Notes under the pieces: generated by a model
Seen by the model: the letters and a program-made list of their open reading frames with translations, nothing else
Told to the model about the DNA's origin: nothing
Database searches by the model: none
Shown: positions 14,783 to 43,927 of the stretch, in pieces
Numbering within the stretch: position 1 is the first letter of the stretch
How the letters are laid out: every line of letters starts with the position of its first letter
Made by a program: the position numbers and the translations under genes
Source: Natribaculum luteum
GTDB taxonomy: Archaea; Halobacteriota; Halobacteria; Halobacteriales; Natrialbaceae
Direction: 5' to 3'
Assembly (NCBI RefSeq): GCF_023008545.1
Contig: NZ_CP095397.1
Coordinates: 2,779,199-2,843,198 of the forward strand
Length of the DNA: 64,000 bases

Positions 14783-14880
14783 GGGAACCCCCCACCCACA
14801 CGACGTCGCGTTCGACTCACAGTGTAACGCGAATCAAGGATGGTGCATTAATCCATCGCAACGACGATCGACCCGTCGAC

Positions 14881-14962
14881 TGCTGGACAACACGGATCAC
14901 AGATCGATCGCACTCGAGTCGCCCACGCTGGTCGGCGACGAATACCGAGACGCGATCGGGCG
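14881..14962 (+). repeat. Dispersed ~83-bp repeat, copy A
   Basis: The first 38 bases match copy B (18488) at 33 positions, including GGACAACACGG and ATCGCACTCGAG equivalents, and the end GAGACGCGATC matches copies B and C. The middle is more diverged. It lies in the divergent gap between trkH and the next gene. Confidence 0.7.
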
Positions 14963-15051
14963 TGTACGGGCTGTCGTGTGAGCGTCACGTGGTTCGGCTG
15001 ACGTCATTCGTGGGTCGACGAACTATACTGACTCGCGTCTAACTGTCGCCC

Positions 15052-18390: not shown

Positions 18391-18661
18391 GACGACCCCT
18401 CCCGTAGCATTGTTACACCGGCATTTCGCAGATGGCGGAAAATACGTTTCGAAGCGGATCGGACGGTCACTCGTCGCGGAGGTATACTGCCGGACAACAC
18501 GGTTCAGACATCGGTCGCACTCGAGACGCTGTCGTCGCTGCCGACAGCCGTCGAGACGCGATCACTGACCGTCGTCCTAGTTGCAACGGTCACAGACGGC
18601 GGAGACGACCGAGAGCGCCCCTCGAGCGTCGAGGTGAACGGGGTCGCGACTAACCCACGGA
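18391..18661. other. Non-coding gap trkA-rnj, first part
   Basis: Between the divergent trkA and rnj genes 484 bases hold no gene I can support. This first part contains the trkA promoter region and dispersed repeat copy B; the remainder is the rnj promoter and leader listed separately. Confidence 0.6.
18488..18570 (+). repeat. Dispersed ~83-bp repeat, copy B
   Basis: Against copy C (minus strand, 41690 to 41607) 40 of the first 47 bases and 14 of 15 bases at CGTCGAGACGCGATC are identical; the segment between is diverged. The bases before the repeat (GTCGCG, then ATACTG) also resemble those of copy C. Confidence 0.8.
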
Positions 18662-30331: not shown

Positions 30332-30721
30332 ATGGTCGAGAAGCGAACCTGCGACTACACGGGCGAAGAGATCGAGCCCGGAACGGGCATCATGTACGTC
30401 CGTACCGACGGTACCGTGCTCCACTTCGTCGACTCGAAGGCGGAGAAAAACTACAAACTCGGGCGCGAACCGCGCGACCTCGAGTGGACCGAGGAGGGCC
30501 GTCGCAACAAGGGTCCAGTGCAGGAACAGCCTGCTGAAGAGACCGAAGAGGCCGAGGAAGCCGAAGAGGCCGAGGAAGCCGAAGAGGCCGAGGAAGCCGA
30601 AGAGGCCGAGGAAGCCGAAGAGGCCGAGGAAGCCGAAGAGGCCGAGGAAGCCGAAGAGGCCGAGGAAGCCGAGACGGCTGACGCCGACAACGAGGACGAC
30701 GCGGAGGACGACGAAGAATGA
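30332..30721 (+). CDS. rpl24e: 50S ribosomal protein L24e (eL24) with acidic repeat tail
   Basis: 129 residues, about twice the usual haloarchaeal length. Residues 1-62 are the L24e core ([38 protein letters not shown]). Only one of the four zinc-binding Cys of the finger form remains (C7); the other positions read T, V and A, so this is the C-minus type. The rest is an acidic tail of EEA units encoded by perfect 18-bp tandem repeats (listed separately) and a final Asp/Glu-rich stretch. Shine-Dalgarno GGAGGACAG precedes the ATG; the stop overlaps ndk (ATGA). Confidence 0.93.
30551..30673 (+). repeat. 18-bp perfect tandem repeat in rpl24e
   Basis: The unit GCCGAGGAAGCCGAAGAG occurs six times without a mismatch (30551-30658), followed by a 15-base partial seventh copy. 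Each unit encodes AEEAEE. Alternating GAG/GAA codons are conserved in every unit, which points to recent copy-number expansion and not to selection on the protein alone. Confidence 0.95.
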
Positions 30722-32723: not shown

Positions 32724-35699
32724 ATGGCCGTAGAGGAGCCCGACGGGACGGAGTCGATCGAGATCGGGTCGTCGAGAGTACCCGACGAGTACGAATCACT
32801 GGCGAACGACCTCGAGGCAGCCTGTGAAGGCGACGTCCGGTTCGATCAGTACACGCGGGTCTGCTACGCCACCGACGGAAGCATCTACAGCGCCGAGCCG
32901 GCGGGCGTCGTCTTCCCGCGAAACGTCGCGGACGTGCAGGCGGCGGTTCGAGCGGCGAGCGACCACGGCGTCCCCGTTCTGCCACGCGGGGCCGGCTCGT
33001 CGCTCGCGGGCCAGGCTGTCGGTGAGGGGTGTATCGTTCTCGACTGCTCGAGACACATGGACTCGATCCGCGAGGTCGATCCGGACGAGCGGACGGCGCG
33101 GGTCGAACCCGGCGTCGTCCAGGACGACCTGGACGACCACCTCGCACAGTGGGGGCTGAAGTTCGCGCCCGATCCCGCCTCCTCGAACCGGGCGACGGTG
33201 GGCGGCGGCATCGGCAACAACTCGACGGGCGCACACTCGGTCCGATACGGCATCACGGACGCCTACGTCGACGAGTTGCAGGTCGTCCTCGCCGACGGGT
33301 CGGTGATCCACACCCGCGACGTCGTCCTCGACAGCGAGGAGTACGAGCGGATCGTCGAGAAGGACGACCGGGAGGCAGCGATCTATCGGACCGTTCGGTC
33401 GATCGTCGAGGACAACGCCGAGGAGATCGAAGACCGGTATCCGACGCTCAAACGCTGCGTCAGCGGCTACAACCTGCAGAAAGTAATTCGAGAGGACGGC
33501 GAAGATGGAGAGGGCGATCGGATCATCAACCTCTCGAAGCTGATCGTCGGTGCGGAGGGCACGCTCGGCGTCGTCGTCGAGGCTAAACTGTCGCTCGTCA
33601 CCCGCCCCGAGGAGACGGCGCTCGTCGTCTGCTGTTACGACGACTTGCTCGAGGCACTCGCGGCCGTCCCCGAGGCGCTCGCGCTCGAGGCAAGCGCGGT
33701 CGAGTTGATGGACGACGAGGTGTTTCGGCTGGCTGCAGCGTCGACCGAGTACGCCCGGTACGCCGAACCGATCCCGGAGGGGACGAAAGCGGCGTTGATG
33801 CTCGAGTACGACTCGGAAGTCGTCTCCGACCTGCCGGATGCGATCGATGGGGCGGTCACGGAACTGGTCGACGACGGGAGCGCGTTCGAGGCGATTCCCG
33901 CGTTCACGCCCGAGAAACAGGGACGGCTCTGGAAGCTCCGGAAGGCCGCCATTCCGCTGTTGATGAGCATGGAGGGCGACCCGAAGCCGTACCCGTTCGT
34001 CGAGGACGCCTCCGTCCCGCCGGAAGAACTGGCCGAGTACGTCGACCGGTTCCAGGAGATCCTCGACGACCACGACACGACGGCCGCGTACTTCGCCCAC
34101 GCCGGCGTCGGGACCTTACACATTCGTCCCGTCCTGAATCTGAAAGACGAAGACGGCGTCGAGACCATGCGCTCGATCGCCGACGACGTCACCGACCTCG
34201 CACTCGAGCACGGCGGCGCGTTCTCGGGCGAACACGGCGACGGCCTCGCCCGAACGGAGTTCAACCCGAAACTCTACGGTTCCGACCTCTGGGCGGCGTT
34301 CAAGGAGGTGAAGTCGGCGTTCGATCCCGACTGGCGGATGAACCCCGGCAAGGTCGTCTATCGCGACGAGGATCCGACGGACATCCGCGAGAACCTCCGG
34401 TACGGTCCAGACTACTACTCGCTCGAGCCTCAGACGACTCTCGACTTCGATGACGACGGCGGCTTCTCGCACCTCGTCGAACTCTGTAACGGCTGTGGAA
34501 CCTGTCGGCAGACGGGCAGCGACGTGATGTGTCCGACCTACCGCGCGAGCGAGGAGGAGATCGCAACGACCCGGGGGCGGGCCAACCTGCTCCGGGCGAC
34601 GATCAGCGGCGACCTCCCACCCGAGGAACTGTATACAGAGCGGTTCCAGCGCGAGGTGCTCGACCTCTGTATCGGCTGTAAGGGTTGCAAGAGCGACTGT
34701 CCGACGGGCGTCGACCTGGCGAAGCTCAAAGTCGAGGTCAAACACCAGTACCACGACCGAGAGGGGACGAGCCTCCGCGAGCGACTGTTCGCGAACGTCG
34801 ATCGCCTCTCCGCGCTCGGCAGCGCACTCGCCCCGCTGTCGAACTACGCGTCGCAACTCCCCGCCGCTCGAGACGTCCTCGAACGAGTCGTCGGCGTCGC
34901 GCCCGATCGGTCGCTCCCCGAGTTCCGACGCGAGTCCCTTTCCACCTGGTTCGAAAAGCGGGGCGGTCCGCGGGTGTCTCCCTCGGCTGCGACCGACCGC
35001 GTCGTGCTGTTTCCGGACACCTACACCAACTACACCGATCCCGGGCCGGGGAAGGCGGCCGTCGCAGTGCTCGAGGCCGCGGGCGTCCACATCGCGATTC
35101 CGGACCTCGGACCGACGGGAAGGGCTGCCCACTCCCAGGGAATGCTCGATCTGGCGGCCGACCGGGGGCGGGCGCTGCTCGCGGATCTCGAGCCCTACCT
35201 CGAGCGCGACTGGTCGATCGTCTTCGTCGAACCCTCGGACGCCTCGATGGTCACAGACGAGTACGAGTCGCTCCTGTCGGACGCCCGCACCGAGACGCTC
35301 GCGGCGAACGCCTTCGGCGTCTTCGAGTACCTCGACCGGAACCGCCTCGACGAAGAGATTGCGTTCGACGCTCCTGACTCCCGGCTCGCCTTCCACGGCC
35401 ACTGTCACCAGAAGGCTCTCGGGCGGGATCACCACGCCGTCGGCGTCCTCCGGCGGGCCGGTTACGCGGTCGACCCGCTCGAGACCGGCTGTTGCGGGAT
35501 GGCCGGCAGTTTCGGCTACGAGGCAGACCACTACGACCTCTCGCGGGCCATCGGCAACCTTCTCCTCGAGACGGTCGAGGAGAGCGACCACGACGTCGTC
35601 GTCGCGCCCGGCGCGTCCTGTCGGACCCAGGTCGGCGACTTCGAGGGGTACGACCGGCCGCCCCACCCGATCGAGGCGCTCGCCGACGCGCTCGAGTGA
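32724..35699 (+). CDS. FAD- and Fe-S-binding D-2-hydroxyacid (D-lactate/glycolate-type) dehydrogenase
   Basis: 991-residue fusion of a GlcD-like and a GlpC-like protein. Residues ~60-290: FAD-binding domain (VVFPRNVADVQAAV, PRGAGSSLAGQAVG, GGGIGNNSTGAHS). Then an FAD-oxidase C-terminal domain ending near HGDGLARTEFNP. From ~590: two ferredoxin-type clusters, CNGCGTCRQTG and CIGCKGCKSDCPTGVD. The C-terminal part has two CCG-type motifs, HGHCHQKALG and ETGCCGMAGSFGYE. It should oxidise D-lactate, glycolate or a similar acid and feed electrons to the respiratory chain. GATTTATCC lies ~28 nt upstream (leaderless). Confidence 0.92.
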   Translation: MAVEEPDGTESIEIGSSRVPDEYESLANDLEAACEGDVRFDQYTRVCYATDGSIYSAEPAGVVFPRNVADVQAAVRAASDHGVPVLPRGAGSSLAGQAVGEGCIVLDCSRHMDSIREVDPDERTARVEPGVVQDDLDDHLAQWGLKFAPDPASSNRATVGGGIGNNSTGAHSVRYGITDAYVDELQVVLADGSVIHTRDVVLDSEEYERIVEKDDREAAIYRTVRSIVEDNAEEIEDRYPTLKRCVSGYNLQKVIREDGEDGEGDRIINLSKLIVGAEGTLGVVVEAKLSLVTRPEETALVVCCYDDLLEALAAVPEALALEASAVELMDDEVFRLAAASTEYARYAEPIPEGTKAALMLEYDSEVVSDLPDAIDGAVTELVDDGSAFEAIPAFTPEKQGRLWKLRKAAIPLLMSMEGDPKPYPFVEDASVPPEELAEYVDRFQEILDDHDTTAAYFAHAGVGTLHIRPVLNLKDEDGVETMRSIADDVTDLALEHGGAFSGEHGDGLARTEFNPKLYGSDLWAAFKEVKSAFDPDWRMNPGKVVYRDEDPTDIRENLRYGPDYYSLEPQTTLDFDDDGGFSHLVELCNGCGTCRQTGSDVMCPTYRASEEEIATTRGRANLLRATISGDLPPEELYTERFQREVLDLCIGCKGCKSDCPTGVDLAKLKVEVKHQYHDREGTSLRERLFANVDRLSALGSALAPLSNYASQLPAARDVLERVVGVAPDRSLPEFRRESLSTWFEKRGGPRVSPSAATDRVVLFPDTYTNYTDPGPGKAAVAVLEAAGVHIAIPDLGPTGRAAHSQGMLDLAADRGRALLADLEPYLERDWSIVFVEPSDASMVTDEYESLLSDARTETLAANAFGVFEYLDRNRLDEEIAFDAPDSRLAFHGHCHQKALGRDHHAVGVLRRAGYAVDPLETGCCGMAGSFGYEADHYDLSRAIGNLLLETVEESDHDVVVAPGASCRTQVGDFEGYDRPPHPIEALADALE

Positions 35700-35781
35700 G
35701 TCGCAGGCGGTCGCGACGTGTGACGACAGGTCGTCGTCTCGAACCACACCGTTTACGCCCGTCACGGCAGTACCGACGTGC

Positions 35782-36048
35782 ATGCCAGTCCCGAAGTCGG
35801 AGTTCGACCAGCTGTATCCGTGTGACTTCTACACCGCCGAGGAACTGTTCGATGACGACCGGATGTACACCGTCTACGAGATCGCCCGCCTCCTGCAGGA
35901 ACTCGAGCCAGACGCCGAACTCGATCCCGAGACCGAGGACATCCTCCTCGACTGGGCGATCCCGTGGATCATGACCAACGCCGACGATCTCGTCGTCGGC
36001 GAACCGCGCAGCGAGGACGAACCGGGCTACTACGGTCTGAAAGAATGA
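35782..36048 (+). CDS. Conserved haloarchaeal protein (DUF5827-like)
   Basis: 88 residues, acidic and soluble, starting MPVPKSEFDQLYPCDFYTAE with a core VYEIARLLQELEPDAELDPE and a conserved ILLDWAIPWIMTNADDLVV. I recall this as DUF5827; function unknown. It overlaps the following P-loop gene by four bases (ATGA), so both are probably made together. Confidence 0.85.
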   Translation: MPVPKSEFDQLYPCDFYTAEELFDDDRMYTVYEIARLLQELEPDAELDPETEDILLDWAIPWIMTNADDLVVGEPRSEDEPGYYGLKE

Positions 36049-36875
36049 TCCTCCTGGTCGCTGGTGCGGACCGAGTCGACGCCGGGAAGACGACCTTCTC
36101 CGCTGGCTTGCTCGCCCGGACCGGCGGGGCAGGATACAAACCGCGCGCGGGAAACGACTACTGGTTCGACCACGACGACTGTCTGCGGGCGCTCGAGTCG
36201 AGTCGGCTCTACGGCAAGGACGCACATCGGCTATCGAAGGCCGAGAACAACGGTCGCGCTCCCGAAGCCCTCAACCCGGTCCATCGGCTCTGGCGGCCCG
36301 CGCCGCGTGGCGGCAACGGACTGCTCGGCCGGAGCGACCGCGAGTTTGTCGTCGACCGGATTACGAACCCGGACGGCGACGACGAGTTCGTCGTCAACGC
36401 GACCGCCAAGATTCCAGAGGCTGTCGCCGCCTCCCTCCCGCTCTCGGACGCCGCCCGTGTCGAGAGCGTCGAAGAACTCAACGCCGCCGTCGAGCAGCGG
36501 TACGCGCCGGCGTTCGACGCGCTCGCCGCCGAAATCGAATCGACCCCACTCGCCGTCGTCGAGTCGTACGGCGACGTCGCACTCCCGCTGCAGTCGCTCG
36601 ACCCGGCTGCCATCGCGGCTGTCGCCGTCGTCGAACCCGGTCGCGCCCGGATCTACCGCGGCGACCGCTACTGTCGCGCCTGCGAGGTCGCCCGCTCGAG
36701 TCCGAACGATGGCACACTCGAGAAGCGCGTCCCGGACGTGATCGAGTACCTCGATCCACTCGAGCGCGTCCCGCTGTCGCCGCTCACGGGCGACAAGCGG
36801 AGTGATCCTGACCAGATCGCGTCGGCCTACGGGGACGCCTACGACGCGTTGCTCGCCGCGGCGAGAGACGTCTGA
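36045..36875 (+). CDS. Predicted P-loop ATPase/GTPase
   Basis: 276 residues. The N-terminus is a deviant Walker A, LLVAGADRVDAGKTTFSAGL, like that of dethiobiotin synthetase/MinD-type NTPases. The segment YKPRAGNDYWFDHDDCL and later AVVESYGDVALP are conserved-looking. Two Cys in RYCRACEV could bind metal. No precise role; translational coupling to the DUF5827-like gene suggests joint function. The last base is adjacent to the convergent hydrolase gene. Confidence 0.8.
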   Translation: MILLVAGADRVDAGKTTFSAGLLARTGGAGYKPRAGNDYWFDHDDCLRALESSRLYGKDAHRLSKAENNGRAPEALNPVHRLWRPAPRGGNGLLGRSDREFVVDRITNPDGDDEFVVNATAKIPEAVAASLPLSDAARVESVEELNAAVEQRYAPAFDALAAEIESTPLAVVESYGDVALPLQSLDPAAIAAVAVVEPGRARIYRGDRYCRACEVARSSPNDGTLEKRVPDVIEYLDPLERVPLSPLTGDKRSDPDQIASAYGDAYDALLAAARDV

Positions 36876-37454
36876 TCAGGCCTGACGCGCCATCCGTGCC
36901 GCGAGTTCGACGTGTCCGTAGGCCTCGTTCGTGACGCTCGGCCCGTGGCCCGCGTGCAGTTCCGCCAGTTCGGGATCGACGCGCTCTCGGACGCGGTCGA
37001 CGCTCTCGATCAGCGTCGCGCGGTCGCCCTCGGCCAGGTCGGTTCGGCCGAAGCCGCCGTTCTGGAAGATCAGGTCGCCGGCAAAGAGGATCTCCGCGTC
37101 GGGAGCGTAGAAACAGAGGTGGTCGTCTTTGTGGCCGGGCGTGTGCAAGGCGACGTACTCGTGATCGCCGAGCGCGACCGCCTCCTCGTCTTCGATCGCG
37201 TGGTCGATACCCTCCTGTGCCGTATCGTACCCCCACGCGTCGACGTCGAAGGCGTCTTTCACCGCGGCGAGGTTCCCCACGTGGTCCGGGTGGGTGTGGG
37301 TCACCACGACCGCCTCGAGGTCGTCGACGCGCTCGCGAAGCGGTGTGACGACGTCGAAGTTCGCACCGGCGTCGACGAGAACCGTCCGCTCGCCGGAGAC
37401 GAGAAAGGCGTTACTCGTGAACGCGGTCACTCCCTGCGCGAGATTCGTGATCAT
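36876..37454 (-). CDS. Metallo-beta-lactamase fold hydrolase
   Basis: 192 residues. The zinc motif VVTHTHPDHVGN (HxHxDH), further ligands His in TPGHKDDHL, Asp in FAGDLIF and His in HAGHGPSV make a complete glyoxalase II-like site. The ATG at 37454 is preferred; an upstream ATG at 37562 would add a polar N-terminus without family resemblance. Substrate unknown, possibly a thioester. Confidence 0.88.
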   Translation of the reverse strand: MITNLAQGVTAFTSNAFLVSGERTVLVDAGANFDVVTPLRERVDDLEAVVVTHTHPDHVGNLAAVKDAFDVDAWGYDTAQEGIDHAIEDEEAVALGDHEYVALHTPGHKDDHLCFYAPDAEILFAGDLIFQNGGFGRTDLAEGDRATLIESVDRVRERVDPELAELHAGHGPSVTNEAYGHVELAARMARQA

Positions 37455-37595
37455 GGCGACCGGTACGGCGGCGCGTGCTTTGTGCGTATCGAAGGCTGCT
37501 GGCGTTCGATCGACCTGACGGCAGTTAGTCACGTCCGTCGCTCGATTCGACTCGTCGGCCACGACGCTTTTGCCCGTCGGGCGGAACTACTCTGC

Positions 37596-38756
37596 ATGAT
37601 CGTACTCCACGGCGGATCGGTGGTCGACGCCACCGGGACGCGGACCGCCGACGTCGCCATCGAGGACGGCCGCATCACCGCTGTCGGCGACGTTCCAGAC
37701 GACGCCGACCGCGAGATCGACGTCTCCGGACAGTTCGTCACGCCAGGCCTGATCGACGCTCACGTCCACCTCGCCTTCGACGGCCGCCCCGACGTCTCGA
37801 CGTATCGAACCGAAAACGACTACGCGGGAGCCTACCGCGTCGCGGCGAACCTCGAGACGCTACTCGAGGTTGGCGTGACGACCGTCCGTGACCTCGGCAG
37901 CTGGGGGACGATGGCGATCGACGCTGCCCGCGCCGTCGACGAGGGAACGATCGCCGGTCCGCGAGTGCTTGCGGCGGGACGGGCCGTCACCATGACCGGC
38001 GGCCACGGCCACTGGTTCGCCCGCGAAGCCGACGGCCCGGCCGACGTTCGGAAAGCCGCCCGCGAACAGCTCAAAGGCGGCGCGCCCGTCCTCAAGTGCA
38101 TCGCCACCGGTGGCGTCCTCACGACCGGCAGCCGAACCGGCGTGCCCGAACTGACGCGGGCGGAACTCGAGGCCGCCGCTGACGTCGCTCGGGCGGCGGA
38201 CGTCCCGATCGCCGCCCACGCCCACGGGGCCGAAGGGATCGTCAACGCCGCCGAGGCTGGATTCGACAGCGTCGAGCACGGCACGTTCATGGACGCCGAC
38301 GCCGCCGAGCGCCTGGCCGACAACGGGACCTACTGGGTGCCGACCGCGAACGCGCTCTACGGCATCGTCGAGGCAGGATCTGATGCCGGCATCCCGCCCG
38401 AAGCCGTCGCGAAAGCCGACCGCTCTCTCGAGGCCTTCGACGACGCGTTCGACCACGCACTTGCGGCAGACGTGCCGATCGCCATGGGGACGGACGCCGG
38501 GACGCCGTTCAACGAGTTCGCTGCCGTTCCCGAAGAACTCGAGCGACTGGTCGATCACGGTCTCTCGCCCGAAGACGCACTCGAGGCCGCCACGGTCGAC
38601 GCCGCCTCCTTGCTCGATCTCGACGACGTCGGACTCGTCGAACCGGCGTTCCGTGCCGACCTCCTCGTTCTCGATGCGAACCCACTCGAGGACGTGACGG
38701 CGTGGCAGCGGCCCGCTACCGTCGTCGCGAACGGCACGATAGTTAAACGCTCGTGA
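37596..38756 (+). CDS. Amidohydrolase family metal-dependent hydrolase
   Basis: 386 residues with the TIM-barrel amidohydrolase architecture. Metal site residues: GLIDAHVHLAF (HxH), a Lys in VLKCIATGG that can be carbamylated, His in AAHAHG and VEHGTF, and Asp in MGTDAGTPF. The short beta-sandwich is formed by both termini (ITAVGDVPDDADREI; ADLLVLDANPL). It is close to imidazolonepropionase/Xaa-Pro dipeptidase-like members; substrate uncertain. It diverges from the MBL gene. Confidence 0.9.
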   Translation: MIVLHGGSVVDATGTRTADVAIEDGRITAVGDVPDDADREIDVSGQFVTPGLIDAHVHLAFDGRPDVSTYRTENDYAGAYRVAANLETLLEVGVTTVRDLGSWGTMAIDAARAVDEGTIAGPRVLAAGRAVTMTGGHGHWFAREADGPADVRKAAREQLKGGAPVLKCIATGGVLTTGSRTGVPELTRAELEAAADVARAADVPIAAHAHGAEGIVNAAEAGFDSVEHGTFMDADAAERLADNGTYWVPTANALYGIVEAGSDAGIPPEAVAKADRSLEAFDDAFDHALAADVPIAMGTDAGTPFNEFAAVPEELERLVDHGLSPEDALEAATVDAASLLDLDDVGLVEPAFRADLLVLDANPLEDVTAWQRPATVVANGTIVKRS

Positions 38757-38811
38757 CAGTATTGGTTTGAATTCACAAGCTCTTTTAGCCACGGCACGTA
38801 GTGTAGGACGA

Positions 38812-40023
38812 ATGTATCGGTCGGTTCTGGCAGGAATCGTCGCGCTGATTCTCGCCGTCTCTGTCGTCAGTGCAGGTGGATCACTCCCGGGAGCGAGTCA
38901 CACCACCGCAGATATTTCGTCTGCGACGCTCACGCCTGATTCAGCTTCGTCTCTCGAGACGAACGGACGCGTCACAGCAGTCCAGTCACAGCAGTTCGAT
39001 AGCACGACGTTCGAGGTCACCGTCTCCGAGAACGGGGACTCGACGTGGACGTTCCGCCACGAACGGCAGCTAAACACGTCTTCTGACTCTAACGAAACGG
39101 ACGAGTACAGAGAGTTCGCCGAACAGTTCGAAGAGGAAGAGACCGAACTCTACGTCCGCTTTACCGAGCAGGCCCAGGCACTTACGGCCACCGGCTCCAA
39201 CCAGACCGACCGCCAGATGGAGGCGACGAACTTCAATCGGTCGGCGGGTATCAACTACCGGCCGAATCCGATGGGCTACGTGGAGATGTCGTTTACGTGG
39301 ACCGGGTTCGCAACCGTCGACGACGACGGGTCCGTCACCGTCGGCGACGTCTTCGACGGCGGCCTCTACATCGGCCCCGACCAGTCGTTCGTCGTTCGAC
39401 CCGGCGACGGACTGGTCTTCGAGAGCGCCCAGCCCGAGGGTCAGTACCTCGGGACGTCGCTCGAGAGCGCGAGTTCGGTGACGTGGAACGGTGAACGGGA
39501 GTTCCCCGACGGTCAACCCCGCGTCGTCCTCGTGCCGGAAGGAAGCGACGGGAGCGACAGCCAGGTTGATGGTAACTCGTCTCTGACCGACTTGTTCTCG
39601 TCGACATGGCTCGTCGCCGGACTGGTCGTCGTCGCCCTCGGACTCGGCGGGTTCGCCTGGTATCGGTTCGGTAGCGGTGCGTCGACCGACGACTCGCCAG
39701 ACGACGGCCCCGCGCCGGACGCCGCTTCACAGCGGTTACCCGACGGGGCTGTCGATTCCGAGGCGGACCAGCCCCCCACACTCCCCGACGAGAGCCTGAT
39801 GACCGACGAGGACCGGGTCGTCAAACTCATTCGCGACAACGGCGGCCGGATGAAGCAAGTCAACATCGTCGAGGAGACCGGCTGGTCGAAGTCGAAAGTC
39901 AGCATGCTCCTCTCGGATATGGAAGAGGAAGGCACGATCAGCAAACTCCGCGTCGGCCGCGAGAACATCATCAGCCTCGACGGCTTCGAACCCGAAGCCA
40001 CCAAGTCTCCCTTCGAGGAATGA
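38812..40023 (+). CDS. Membrane-anchored HTH regulator with extracellular domain
   Basis: 403 residues. N-terminal signal peptide (about 3-25), an extracellular ~240-residue domain rich in Asn/Ser/Thr, one membrane helix (about 266-286, STWLVAGLVVVALGLGGFAW), a Pro/Asp-rich linker, and a cytosolic winged-helix module at the C-terminus (RVVKLIRDNGGRMKQVNIVE, then KSKVSMLLSDMEEEG). This layout suits a one-piece transmembrane sensor-regulator. The ATG at 38812 follows CTCTTTTAGCC by ~25-30 nt (leaderless). Confidence 0.88.
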   Translation: MYRSVLAGIVALILAVSVVSAGGSLPGASHTTADISSATLTPDSASSLETNGRVTAVQSQQFDSTTFEVTVSENGDSTWTFRHERQLNTSSDSNETDEYREFAEQFEEEETELYVRFTEQAQALTATGSNQTDRQMEATNFNRSAGINYRPNPMGYVEMSFTWTGFATVDDDGSVTVGDVFDGGLYIGPDQSFVVRPGDGLVFESAQPEGQYLGTSLESASSVTWNGEREFPDGQPRVVLVPEGSDGSDSQVDGNSSLTDLFSSTWLVAGLVVVALGLGGFAWYRFGSGASTDDSPDDGPAPDAASQRLPDGAVDSEADQPPTLPDESLMTDEDRVVKLIRDNGGRMKQVNIVEETGWSKSKVSMLLSDMEEEGTISKLRVGRENIISLDGFEPEATKSPFEE

Positions 40024-40115
40024 CCGACTCCGTGCGTGTCAGTGGGATACACTGCCGCCTCGAAACGGAACCCTTAAACACAACAGCGAGCAACGAAAGA
40101 GTGCAGGCAAGACGG

Positions 40116-40190
40116 GCTCCGATAGTGTAGTCCGGCCAATCATATTGCCCTCTCGAGGCAATGACCGGGGTTCAAATCCCCGTCGGAGCA
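40116..40190 (+). tRNA. tRNA-Glu (CUC anticodon)
   Basis: Acceptor arms GCTCCGA (40116-40122) and TCGGAGC (40183-40189) pair perfectly. The anticodon stem TTGCC/GGCAA encloses CTCTCGA with anticodon CTC at 40152-40154. T-arm GGGGTTCAAATCCCC is complete. A TATA-like CCTTAAAC lies ~35 nt upstream. The 3' end serves as an integration site (see repeats). Confidence 0.97.
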
Positions 40191-40192
40191 TT
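40169..40192 (+). repeat. Att-like direct repeat, copy 1 (inside tRNA-Glu 3' end)
   Basis: GGTTCAAATCCCCGTCGGAG plus CATT, 24 bases covering the T-loop to the end of the tRNA. It is repeated without mismatch at 40281-40304. Confidence 0.85.
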
Positions 40193-40221
40193 TTGCTGCG
40201 AACAAACCCGTGAGCAGCAAA
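40192..40221. repeat. Hairpin after tRNA-Glu
   Basis: TTTGCTGC (40192-40199) and GCAGCAAA (40214-40221) are perfect eight-base inverted arms with a 14-base loop. It lies in the spacer between the tRNA and the duplicated 3' fragment and may end the tRNA transcript or belong to the integrated element. Confidence 0.55.
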
Positions 40222-40280
40222 TGCGCCTTTGGATTTGAATGAGACCAGTCGCGCACAGCGAAGCGAGCACGTCTGGGCGT

Positions 40281-40304
40281 GGTTCAAATCCCCGTCGGAG
40301 CATT
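40281..40304 (+). repeat. Att-like direct repeat, copy 2 (tRNA-Glu 3' fragment)
   Basis: A perfect 24-base copy of the tRNA-Glu 3' end, 112 bases downstream. The sequence before it does not form the rest of a tRNA, so it is a fragment of the kind left by tyrosine-recombinase integration at tRNA genes. Confidence 0.85.
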
Positions 40305-40646
40305 CTTCCACTCTCAGACCTTCTACCGGCAGGTTTCACTTTTCGAAAACCGGTTAAGTTGCCCCGGTGAGCAATCAAACTCGTCTCAAGTGTGGCTGCT
40401 CAGGTCACGCTGTTTTTGTTGTAGATCGTTCGATCAATAATCATCAGCTAGATAATGAGTGAGAGTGCTGCGAAAGTGCTGCGTCAGTTTCCGTTATCAG
40501 TAGTCCGTACTGCCCTTTACCAGTCCTAATAGTAATCATAAGATAAACTGAATTACCAGAATACTTCAAACATTTAAAAGCAACCAGTCAACAATCGAAT
40601 TTGCCGGTTGGGCACCCAAACTCGTCGTCTGACTGGAGAGCAAGCT
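40305..40646. other. AT-rich non-coding stretch before integrase
   Basis: No gene supported. The base composition is far more AT-rich than the chromosome around it. CATTTAAAAGC at 40571-40581 is a good TATA-like element for the integrase, with a start expected near 40605. Confidence 0.6.
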
Positions 40647-41657
40647 ATGAAAGACTACAACGAGCCAACAATCTTGACCAACCCGACGAAGAAAATGTTG
40701 AACGCCCGCGAACAGAAACTCTATCGCAAACATCGAGAGAAACTCATTCGCTGGCTTGCGAACTGCGGGAAGGATCTGGACAAATTCGAAGGATATAGCG
40801 GCCGAACAGTGAAGATGACAGCAGACAGGCTGGACATGTTCTATCGCTGGGTCTGGCAAAATCAGACTAATGGATTCACAATTGACATTACCCACGACCA
40901 TGCTGATGCATACGTGGATTATCTCCGGAAGTACAAGGACTCCAGCACCTCGGATAAAAAGAAGCACGTCATGTGTGTCAAACGGCTGTTCAAGTGGCGG
41001 CACGACGAGCACGATGGAGATCTCTGGAAGCCGGATGTGACCTTCACCACCACCAACTCGAATCCACAAGACTACCTCGATCGCGAGGAACGACGAAAGA
41101 TTCGCAGTGCATCGCTAAAGCACGGAGAGGTCCCAGAACTCGAGGATATTGAACCGGGGGAACTCGATTACTGGAAACAAGTTCTGGCACAACGGCTCGG
41201 CAAGCCGAAGCACGAGATCAGCTCGGATGACTGGGGAGACGCGAACTCATGGAAGATTCCGTCTCTCGTCTGGGTTTCGCTCGATGCAGGACTACGACCA
41301 GCCGAGGTCGAAAAGGCATCCACCTCTTGGTTCCGGCCACAGAAAGCAGTCCTCCAAATCCCCAAGAACGATGCCGTGAAAAGTCGTGACAACTGGGAAG
41401 TCGCCCTTCGACATGATACGGCAGAAGTGCTCGAGGCGTGGCTGGAAGAGCGAGAGCAGATTGAAGCATACAACGACACCGATCGCATCTGGCTCAATCG
41501 CGAAGGAAATCCGTACCAAAGCGCATCATTGATTGGAGTTATCAATCGGGTCGCTGATACTGCAGGAATCGAGACCAAGAATCGTTCCTTGTCATGGTAC
41601 TCGATTCGATACTCGATCACGTCTCGACGTCTGGAGCCGTTGGCGACAGCGTTTTGA
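40647..41657 (+). pseudogene. Tyrosine recombinase/phage-type integrase, C-terminus lost
   Basis: 336 residues. The N-terminal core-binding-like helical domain (about 1-120) and the start of the catalytic domain are clear: Arg I in SLDAGLRPAEVEKAS, the beta-strand Lys region in VLQIPKNDAVKSRDNWEVAL, and an Arg II-like box in LSWYSIRYS. After this the frame runs into dispersed repeat copy C and stops at TTF-like residues LEPLATAF, before any Tyr nucleophile. It is therefore catalytically dead. Start: ATG 40647 with GGAGAG upstream; a TTG at 40608 close to the predicted transcript start is possible. Low GC marks it as acquired. Confidence 0.85.
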
Positions 41658-41690
41658 GTGCGATCGATGTATGAACCATGTTGTCCAACA
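41607..41690 (-). repeat. Dispersed ~83-bp repeat, copy C
   Basis: Minus-strand copy of the element seen at 14881 and 18488. Its inner end (GAGACGTGATCGAGTATCG on the minus strand) coincides with the point where the integrase sequence stops resembling its family, and it supplies the last integrase codons and the stop. Confidence 0.8.
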
Positions 41691-41807
41691 GTATGAGTCG
41701 TCGCGACCCACCAGCCCAACTACGAGTGGACCAATAATGTCGTTACCGGGTAACTCGTTCAGTGGAATCATGAGAAGCCGACAAACACGACGGGAGAGGG
41801 CCACTGC

Positions 41808-42023
41808 ATGACCGACGCTGATCGTTTCGGAACAGCGACGGTAATGATGGTCCTGGCAGTACTCGTCGTTATCCTCCTCGTCGGCGTCGGAGTCCTGCAA
41901 TTATACCTCAGCGAAGAAGCTGGACCGTTACTTCGCAACCTTGTCATCGCGGTAATTCTTCTTGCCTTTAGCACCGCGCTCTACCGACAGTGGCGTCGTG
42001 AATTCAATTCTGATTCGAAGTGA
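41808..42023 (+). CDS. Small membrane protein, unknown function
   Basis: 71 residues. Two hydrophobic helices (about 10-32 and 40-58), short polar N-terminus, and a charged C-terminus (RQWRREFNSDSK). No family recognised. It lies in the low-GC island between the truncated integrase and non-coding DNA, so it may be cargo of the integrated element. Confidence 0.55.
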   Translation: MTDADRFGTATVMMVLAVLVVILLVGVGVLQLYLSEEAGPLLRNLVIAVILLAFSTALYRQWRREFNSDSK

Positions 42024-42747
42024 CCGACGACCGCCGACTCGAGAGAACGTACGCCGGTGCTCACGTTCACATGTGGAGAAGGCGGTTGAGAGATCTAGTT
42101 AGTTAGATAGGGATTTCAACGCAGCGGTTTGAACAGCTGCAGATACATCTTCTCGAAAGAACACAAGAGTGAAAATATGCTAGTACAGACAGACACAGAG
42201 CGAGCCGCCGAGTACGCAAGTACCACAGCTTGGAAAGGGCCGAAACCAGAGAGCAGTTTTACCGGAGGCCACTGACTGAAGCGGTTCCGGGATCGAACAA
42301 TTCTGGTTGATTCCAATACTCCAGTACGGTTCTAGAGTGACGCGGAAATCTAGGAGTTATCTGGGACGTATTCGGAACCCTCAGTGAGGAATCCGGGACG
42401 GTTCTCAGAGACCTCTGGGAGCTATATAGGACAGATCACTAGAAGCGTGGGTGCGCAGAACGATGTGCAGACCCTCTCTGGGGCTCTCAGCCGGGCTGCG
42501 ATACATACTCATCATCACCGGTCGCTTCGTCGAGGATGGCAGCCGGGATTGGTTCTGCTCGATAACCTTCAGAAGTTGACTGATACCAGTCGATCGAAAG
42601 CAACCGACTAGCCGGGACGATTTGAGTGAAGTTGGCCCCCTTCCTCGACCTGCAGCATGTTGTTTCAACCGGGTCGCAGCCGCCTGAGTCACACCGAACC
42701 AACGATCTCCACAATAGTGATTACGAGGAGGATCGATATTGTGGGGT
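42024..42747. other. Low-GC non-coding stretch, island remnant
   Basis: 724 bases without a supported gene. Short open frames on both strands have poor codon use and no recognisable motif. It contains an imperfect direct repeat (42326-42367 and 42398-42432, sharing ACGGTTCT, then GGAG-TAT and GGGAC/AGGAC). It is probably decayed mobile-element DNA ending at the return of high-GC sequence near 42740. Confidence 0.55.
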
Positions 42748-43134
42748 ATGGGGTATACGACACAACGCGTAATCGACGGAGAGTTCGACGAGGTCGTCGA
42801 GCAGACGACAGACGCCCTCGCGGAGGAGGGGTTCGGGATCCTCTGTGACATCGACGTGCAGGCCACGTTCGAGAAGAAACTCGACGAACAGTTCCGCCAG
42901 TACTGCATCCTCGGGGCATGCAACCCGCCGCTGGCCCACCAGGGACTCGAGGACGAGATCGACCTCGGTGTGCTCTTGCCGTGTAACGTCGCGGTCTACG
43001 AGACGGACGACGGGGACGTCGTCGTGAGCGCGGTCGACCCCGAGCGGCTCGTCGGCATCGCCGAGAATCCCGACCTCGAGCCGATCGCCGAGGAGGTAGC
43101 AGAGCGATTCGAGCGGGTGCTCGACGCGCTGTAG
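42748..43134 (+). CDS. DUF302 domain protein
   Basis: 128 residues. EQTTDALAEEGFGILCDIDV, FRQYCILGACNPPLAHQGL and the VLLPCNVAVYE strand are characteristic of DUF302, an alpha/beta family of unknown function. Two Cys at C-x4-C distance in the YCILGACNPP segment may bind a ligand. The ATG at 42748 is preferred over the TTG at 42739. High GC shows it lies outside the island. Confidence 0.9.
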   Translation: MGYTTQRVIDGEFDEVVEQTTDALAEEGFGILCDIDVQATFEKKLDEQFRQYCILGACNPPLAHQGLEDEIDLGVLLPCNVAVYETDDGDVVVSAVDPERLVGIAENPDLEPIAEEVAERFERVLDAL

Positions 43135-43138
43135 CGGC

Positions 43139-43927
43139 TCACTCGCCCTCGAACTCGGGCGACTCCTTCTCGAGGAAACCGTGGAGACCGGCCGCGTAGT
43201 CGTCGGTGTCGGCGAGATCCGTGATTCGGTCTTTCTCCGCGTCGAGGTGGGTCTCGAGGTCGTTCTGGCCGCTCTCGTGCAACAGCGTCTTGATCTCCGC
43301 ATAGGCGAGCGTCGGCCCCGACGCGAGTTTCGAGGCCGTCGCCTCGAGGCGGTCGTCGAACTCGTCGGCGGGGACGGCGTCGGTCGCCAGACCATGTTCG
43401 ACGGCCGCCGTGGCGTCGATCGGTTCCTCGAGTAAGGCGAACGCCTGCGCCCGTCGCAGGCCGAGGAGTCGTGGCAGAAACCACGTCGCGCCACCGTCGC
43501 CCGAGAGACCGATGGTCGGGTAGGCGTACTCGAATCGGGCGTCGTCCGCGACGAGGACGACGTCGCCGGCGAGCGCGAGGCCGAGTCCGCCGCCGGCGAC
43601 GACGCCGTTGACGCCGGTCACGACCGGTTTCGGCGCGTCGACGAGCGCCTGAACGGCCGCGTGGAGCGGCGTCGCGATCGCGTCCAGTCGGTCGGCGTCC
43701 GTCTCGTCGCCGTCGAACGTCGAGAGGTCTGCACCGGTGTTGAACACTCCGTCGGTGCCGGTCAGAACGAGACATCGAACGTCGTCGTCGGCAGAAAGCG
43801 AGTCGATGGTGGTCGCGAGGTTCGCTGCCATCGCTTCGTCCATCGCGTTGTGTCGCTCCGGTCGGTCCATCACGATCCGTCCGACGCCCTCGGCGGTCTC
43901 TACGGACAGGTGTTCGGTCGACGTCAT
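43139..43927 (-). CDS. Enoyl-CoA hydratase/isomerase family protein
   Basis: 262-residue crotonase-fold enzyme. The oxyanion-hole segments are FNTGADLSTF (Gly) and VNGVVAGGGLGLALAGDVVL (Gly). Acidic catalytic positions lie near GLSGDGGATWFLPRLLG. This fits CoA-ester hydration or isomerisation in fatty-acid or aromatic degradation; the substrate is not fixed. It is convergent with the DUF302 gene, four bases apart. Confidence 0.92.
   Translation of the reverse strand: MTSTEHLSVETAEGVGRIVMDRPERHNAMDEAMAANLATTIDSLSADDDVRCLVLTGTDGVFNTGADLSTFDGDETDADRLDAIATPLHAAVQALVDAPKPVVTGVNGVVAGGGLGLALAGDVVLVADDARFEYAYPTIGLSGDGGATWFLPRLLGLRRAQAFALLEEPIDATAAVEHGLATDAVPADEFDDRLEATASKLASGPTLAYAEIKTLLHESGQNDLETHLDAEKDRITDLADTDDYAAGLHGFLEKESPEFEGE

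Follow-up and report, generated by a model that had tools for sequence, protein, structure and literature searches.

The window, a 64,000-nt (64-kb) stretch of the Natribaculum luteum genome (G000:C1:2779199-2843198), contains an integrase gene whose last codons are made of repeat DNA (Table 1). The open reading frame (40647-41657) encodes 336 amino acids from an ATG to a TGA stop, and an upstream TTG start is also listed in the table of open reading frames. Its G+C content is 51.8%, compared with 65.0% for the window, and its composition is foreign. Relatives were found with tblastn in 49 phage records, every one at <60% identity. The integrases of HSTV-2 (Halorubrum sodomense tailed virus 2) and HRTV-7 are 37.6-37.8% identical to it over 92%, and the HSTV-2 match, at 37.6% over 92% of the query, exceeds the family threshold of ≥30% identity over 60% of the protein given in a review of archaeal tyrosine recombinases (PMC8371274). 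On this basis we assign the integrase to the HSTV2-type archaeal tyrosine recombinases, from which it differs in that the catalytic C-terminus is absent. A family-wide search returned integrase matches in 66 of 125 genomes of the host family, with integrase fragments being common, and the sister genome has just a 49% relative. A tRNA-Glu gene adjoins the integrase at 18 of the 28 loci scanned; two of these 18 (L053 and L102) carry the same protein.

Table 1 Features of the integrase locus and other repeat copies in the window
Feature	Position	Strand	Evidence
MITE copy, degenerate	14879..14977	-	
MITE copy, diverged 5' end	18485..18577	-	
tRNA-Glu (CTC), likely attachment gene of this integrase group	40116..40190	+	ARAGORN, Rfam
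Exact duplicate of the tRNA 3' end, 22 bp	40281..40302	+	2 matches, 0 expected
End of collinearity with the sister species N. breve (G001)	40374	.	Similarity stops
HSTV2-type tyrosine recombinase, surviving part (core-binding region, Arg I, Arg II)	40647..41615	+	
Junction overlap ATACTCG, readable as integrase R-Y-S codons or MITE nt 24-30	41609..41615	+	L075, MITE consensus
MITE copy truncated at its 5' end (model nt 24-108 of 108), right terminal inverted repeat intact; supplies the last codons and TGA 41655-41657	41609..41693	+	
TGA, right half of the 3-bp target duplication; the left half is absent	41694..41696	+	Duplication statistics; unoccupied N. longum CTGAG
Segment common to N. longum and N. 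breve plasmids, with 71-aa membrane-protein-like ORF (41808-42023)	41694..42037	+	

To the left of the integrase, window positions 34671-40374 are collinear with N. breve (G001:C1) at 93.9% identity. Similarity stops 72 bp past the second copy of the tRNA 3' end, and the remaining approximately 8.3 kb fetched from N. breve at that place have no match in the window. The duplicated tRNA 3' end is also present in N. breve, which has no integrase at this place, and it is therefore older than the integrase. The arrangement of tRNA, spacer of approximately 90 bp and 3'-end copy (40190-40302) recurs, whole or in pieces, in all 21 genomes searched. Hence, the duplication is not evidence for an att site of the integrase itself, and no distal copy is found in the window. 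The interval 40374-43139 is a synteny break, with the left side matching N. breve C1:320 kb (reverse strand) and the right side, from 44037 onward, matching near C1:400 kb. The genomes of the two Natribaculum species are thus also rearranged relative to each other at this locus. Elsewhere in the window, 9-bp tandem repeats of GCCGAAGAG type, encoding acidic Ala-Glu, lie at the end of an open reading frame (30533-30700).

The initial annotation described a tyrosine recombinase broken at a repeat and lacking its Tyr nucleophile, and both points are borne out. Across 42 aligned rows, including at least 4 that duplicate others, homology to full-length integrases reaches SWYSIRYS (41592-41615), with R-Y-S (codons 41607-41615) as the last homologous codons, and then departs from every relative, as the reading frame enters repeat DNA and stops at 41657. 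Of the 42 rows, 40 extend approximately 45 residues past SWY..R(H/Y)S, toward ..QLRH..TTMKYD..DALDRMG, and QLRH and KYD, which we take to hold the second catalytic His and the Tyr of tyrosine recombinases, are present in nearly all of these 40 extensions. The Pfam integrase domain is matched up to profile position 125 of 172 in the window protein and up to position 167 in the full-length relative L050. Given that homology ends at Arg II, the complete catalytic set with the C-terminal His and Tyr is absent, and the truncated product should be inactive.

A natural family of integrases that end at this position is not seen, as none of the 40 rows possessing a C-terminus does so. As for the two rows that lack one, L111 is a partial match and L068 is cut by unrelated IS-like sequence; the latter (G122:C1:2502.3 kb) is a related integrase interrupted nine residues before SWY. 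A downstream Tyr in another frame was likewise not found. Comparison of the C-terminal parts of the 40 relatives with the 64-kb window gave nothing convincing, the sole in-place match being the repeat-encoded tail (41592-41651, E 0.006), and the remaining top matches, at other places in the window, seem to be chance similarities. The lost part, which might have survived nearby or elsewhere, was also not recovered in a genome-wide search with a 53-residue C-terminal query; at E < 1e-11 this query matched only a pair of full-length integrases (C1:868-870 kb), and its two other hits were weak (E approximately 0.6). The integrase truncation is real and is ordinary genome decay.

The repeat is a MITE. 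The full element is 108 bp long, non-coding, has terminal inverted repeats with the ends TACTRCYGGACAACA, and is present in many copies. We combined 40 copies scored by similarity with 70 exact end-motif sites into a set of 60 distinct copies, from which three duplicate retrievals had been dropped; these are a sample and not a census, given that first looks returned 199-215 candidates and several listed copies were left unfetched. All end-motif sites not yet covered proved to be MITE copies once fetched. Most of the 60 copies start at element nt 1 or 2. Identical 3-bp flanks are found in 30 of the 48 copies that have both ends (shuffle mean 10.6, max 20, 10,000 shuffles) and, outside this genome, in 34 of 39 copies with both ends, where 40 were fetched and 1 was skipped for an incomplete end (shuffle mean 14.6, max 26). 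The duplicated target reads T-N-A and is bordered by G or C (C/G before in 38/45, G/C after in 33/45), and the window copy keeps only the right half of this duplication. Short length, absence of coding capacity, terminal inverted repeats, a short target duplication and many copies are shared with the prokaryotic MITEs described in PMC10969869 and PMC3119063. In contrast to these, the whole element is predicted to form one conserved hairpin, copies in this genome frequently lie on stop codons, and no parent transposon was found among the IS ends examined. The predicted fold has a z-score of -7.4 (one copy against mononucleotide shuffles), 59-68 of the 68 ungapped sequences retain any given predicted pair, and both sides have changed at several pairs, which suggests that the family keeps a covarying full-length hairpin. 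No transposase flanked on both sides by MITE-type ends emerged among 30 of 57 PF01609 loci fetched from this genome. In two copies, L041 (G000:C1:1280.9 kb) and L047 (187.0 kb), the MITE is interrupted near nt 89-97 by similar-looking sequence, and in L047 the MITE end resumes approximately 80 bp later; a second small element therefore appears to be nested there.

Forty-five of the 60 copies span the model completely (nt 1-108), and 24 of these 45 coincide exactly with the stop codon of a coding-like frame in this genome (own-genome loci L009-L047 and L082-L099; p 1.6e-8). The control sites all come from the window, where genes were assigned by a simple rule of codon position; here the count was 23 of 140 non-coding target-like sites, or 43 of 420 when any T-N-A was accepted. 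The excess is weak in other genomes (11 of 39 copies, p 0.053 against the 23/140 control). At such sites the 3-bp duplication repeats the stop codon.

The MITE family occurs in 57 of the 125 host-family genomes, covering 21 of 29 genera, and on seven plasmid records. It had no match in a phage collection, nor in viral contigs with one exact 27-mer. A literature search, for which subscription papers were mostly beyond reach, returned no description of a 108-bp family of this kind, which is apparently undescribed. A similar case is SMR-A of Haloquadratum walsbyi (PMC3119063), with which it shares a length of approximately 110 bp, prominent terminal inverted repeats and the absence of a known mobiliser; however, SMR-A makes no target duplication, whereas the MITE described here makes one of 3 bp.

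At the integrase, repeat homology begins at 41608/41609, which corresponds to model nt 23/24, and is 88% to other copies. The first 23 bp, the left terminal repeat and the left duplication are missing, and the true MITE end is on the opposite side, at 41693 followed by TGA. The junction is thus an internal point of the MITE and not its conserved end, as the initial annotation had it, and so it is not an insertion boundary. At R-Y-S the relative L075 reads CGA TAC TCG, so that ATACTCG could derive from the integrase or from the MITE. At a random junction, 7 or more shared bases have a chance of approximately 4e-4, a figure that holds only if the intact gene resembled L075; given that R-Y-S is read by only 1 of 40 relatives, the microhomology could be just 1 nt. 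Just one further MITE copy begins at nt 24, namely L029 (L100:1251-1585; G000:C1:3599.4-3599.8 kb). It lies just behind a tRNA-Arg CCT with a duplicated 3' end, and its left flank shows weak similarity to an inverted MITE (E 0.09-0.22). A role of the repeat as att or recombination site of the integrase was rejected because the copies carry transposition-type duplications and most were found without seeking an integrase.

The DNA to the right of the MITE has a history of its own. It is found on the N. longum plasmid CP095395.1 (82.6% identity, similarity from 41694) and on the N. breve TRM20010 plasmid CP095391.1 (83.6% identity, similarity from 41703), and the fetched stretches of both plasmids hold neither a MITE at this place nor an integrase. 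The N. longum site reads GGGCC-TGA-GGCGCCGCGACCC, an unoccupied CTGAG target, and N. breve has TGT where N. longum has TGA. Since this flank occurs in two plasmids without MITE or integrase, it was most likely here, and not in the integrase, that the MITE inserted, with the integrase being joined to the interior of the MITE by a separate, later deletion or recombination. It does not follow, then, that the repeat arrived after the integrase, as had been proposed; of the two routes offered for its arrival, recombination is retained as the likely cause of the junction, whereas insertion into the integrase is not supported, given the missing left repeat and duplication and the MITE- and integrase-free right flank.

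We consider it probable, at roughly 85%, that the integrase lost its C-terminus by deletion or illegitimate recombination that joined the Arg II codon to MITE nt 23/24. An HSTV2-type integrase would have been present at the tRNA-Glu(CTC), presumably from a provirus or an integrative plasmid, and independently a MITE would have transposed into a CTGAG target beside the plasmid-borne 71-aa gene. The join would then have cost the integrase its C-terminus (approximately 45 codons) and the MITE both its first 23 bp and its left target duplication, perhaps using the ATACTCG microhomology, which would amount to 7-10 nt if the intact gene resembled L075. Against this model stands that an intact pre-deletion allele was not found. 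At only 83% identity and on a plasmid, the N. longum segment is a related copy and not the immediate ancestor, and the N. breve segment has TGT in place of TGA. The start of L029 at the same nucleotide hints at a breakage hot spot, which is outside the account given by the model. Overall, the locus is a graveyard of mobile DNA.

Other histories of the junction have been weighed. It is unlikely that the MITE landed at the stop codon of the integrase itself, or directly after it, and that a small deletion of approximately 160 bp then took the gene end together with the left end of the MITE. The frequent siting of complete copies on stop codons in this genome and the TGA of the right duplication speak for such an event, but what lies left of the corresponding site in the N. 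longum and N. breve relatives is unrelated DNA and not the end of an integrase gene. A transposition of the repeat directly into the integrase, with later loss of the MITE left end and the 3' end of the gene, would account for how closely integrase homology and repeat abut (within approximately two codons); nevertheless, we regard it as very improbable, given the absence of the left terminal repeat and left duplication, the lack of any integrase DNA on the right side of the MITE in the window, including the C-terminus, and the occurrence of the right flank elsewhere without an integrase.

It is also conceivable that selection has preserved the shortened protein as a working N-terminal domain, such as a DNA-binding regulator, whose new end comes from the MITE. 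All 336 codons are open, free of stops or frameshifts, and homology spans the whole N-terminal part. However, no relative ends here and fragments of such integrases are common in the host family, and on the sequence at hand we would call a selected function quite improbable. Loss of the C-terminus by a join to the interior of the MITE is the reading that we retain.

These results resolve the anatomy of a repeat that could otherwise be misread as an integrase boundary or an att site, and the MITE family deserves study separate from the decay of the integrase. Tentatively, and at rather less than even odds, the repeat may be an undescribed, family-wide, 108-bp fold-back mobile element of the Natrialbaceae, with a hairpin kept by compensatory change and a C-T-N-A-G target that favours stop codons, so that insertion would duplicate the stop and the gene would stay intact. 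Given its presence in 57 of 125 genomes, its precise target and duplication and its conserved hairpin, both the mobiliser of the family and any role that it may have at gene ends are directly testable.
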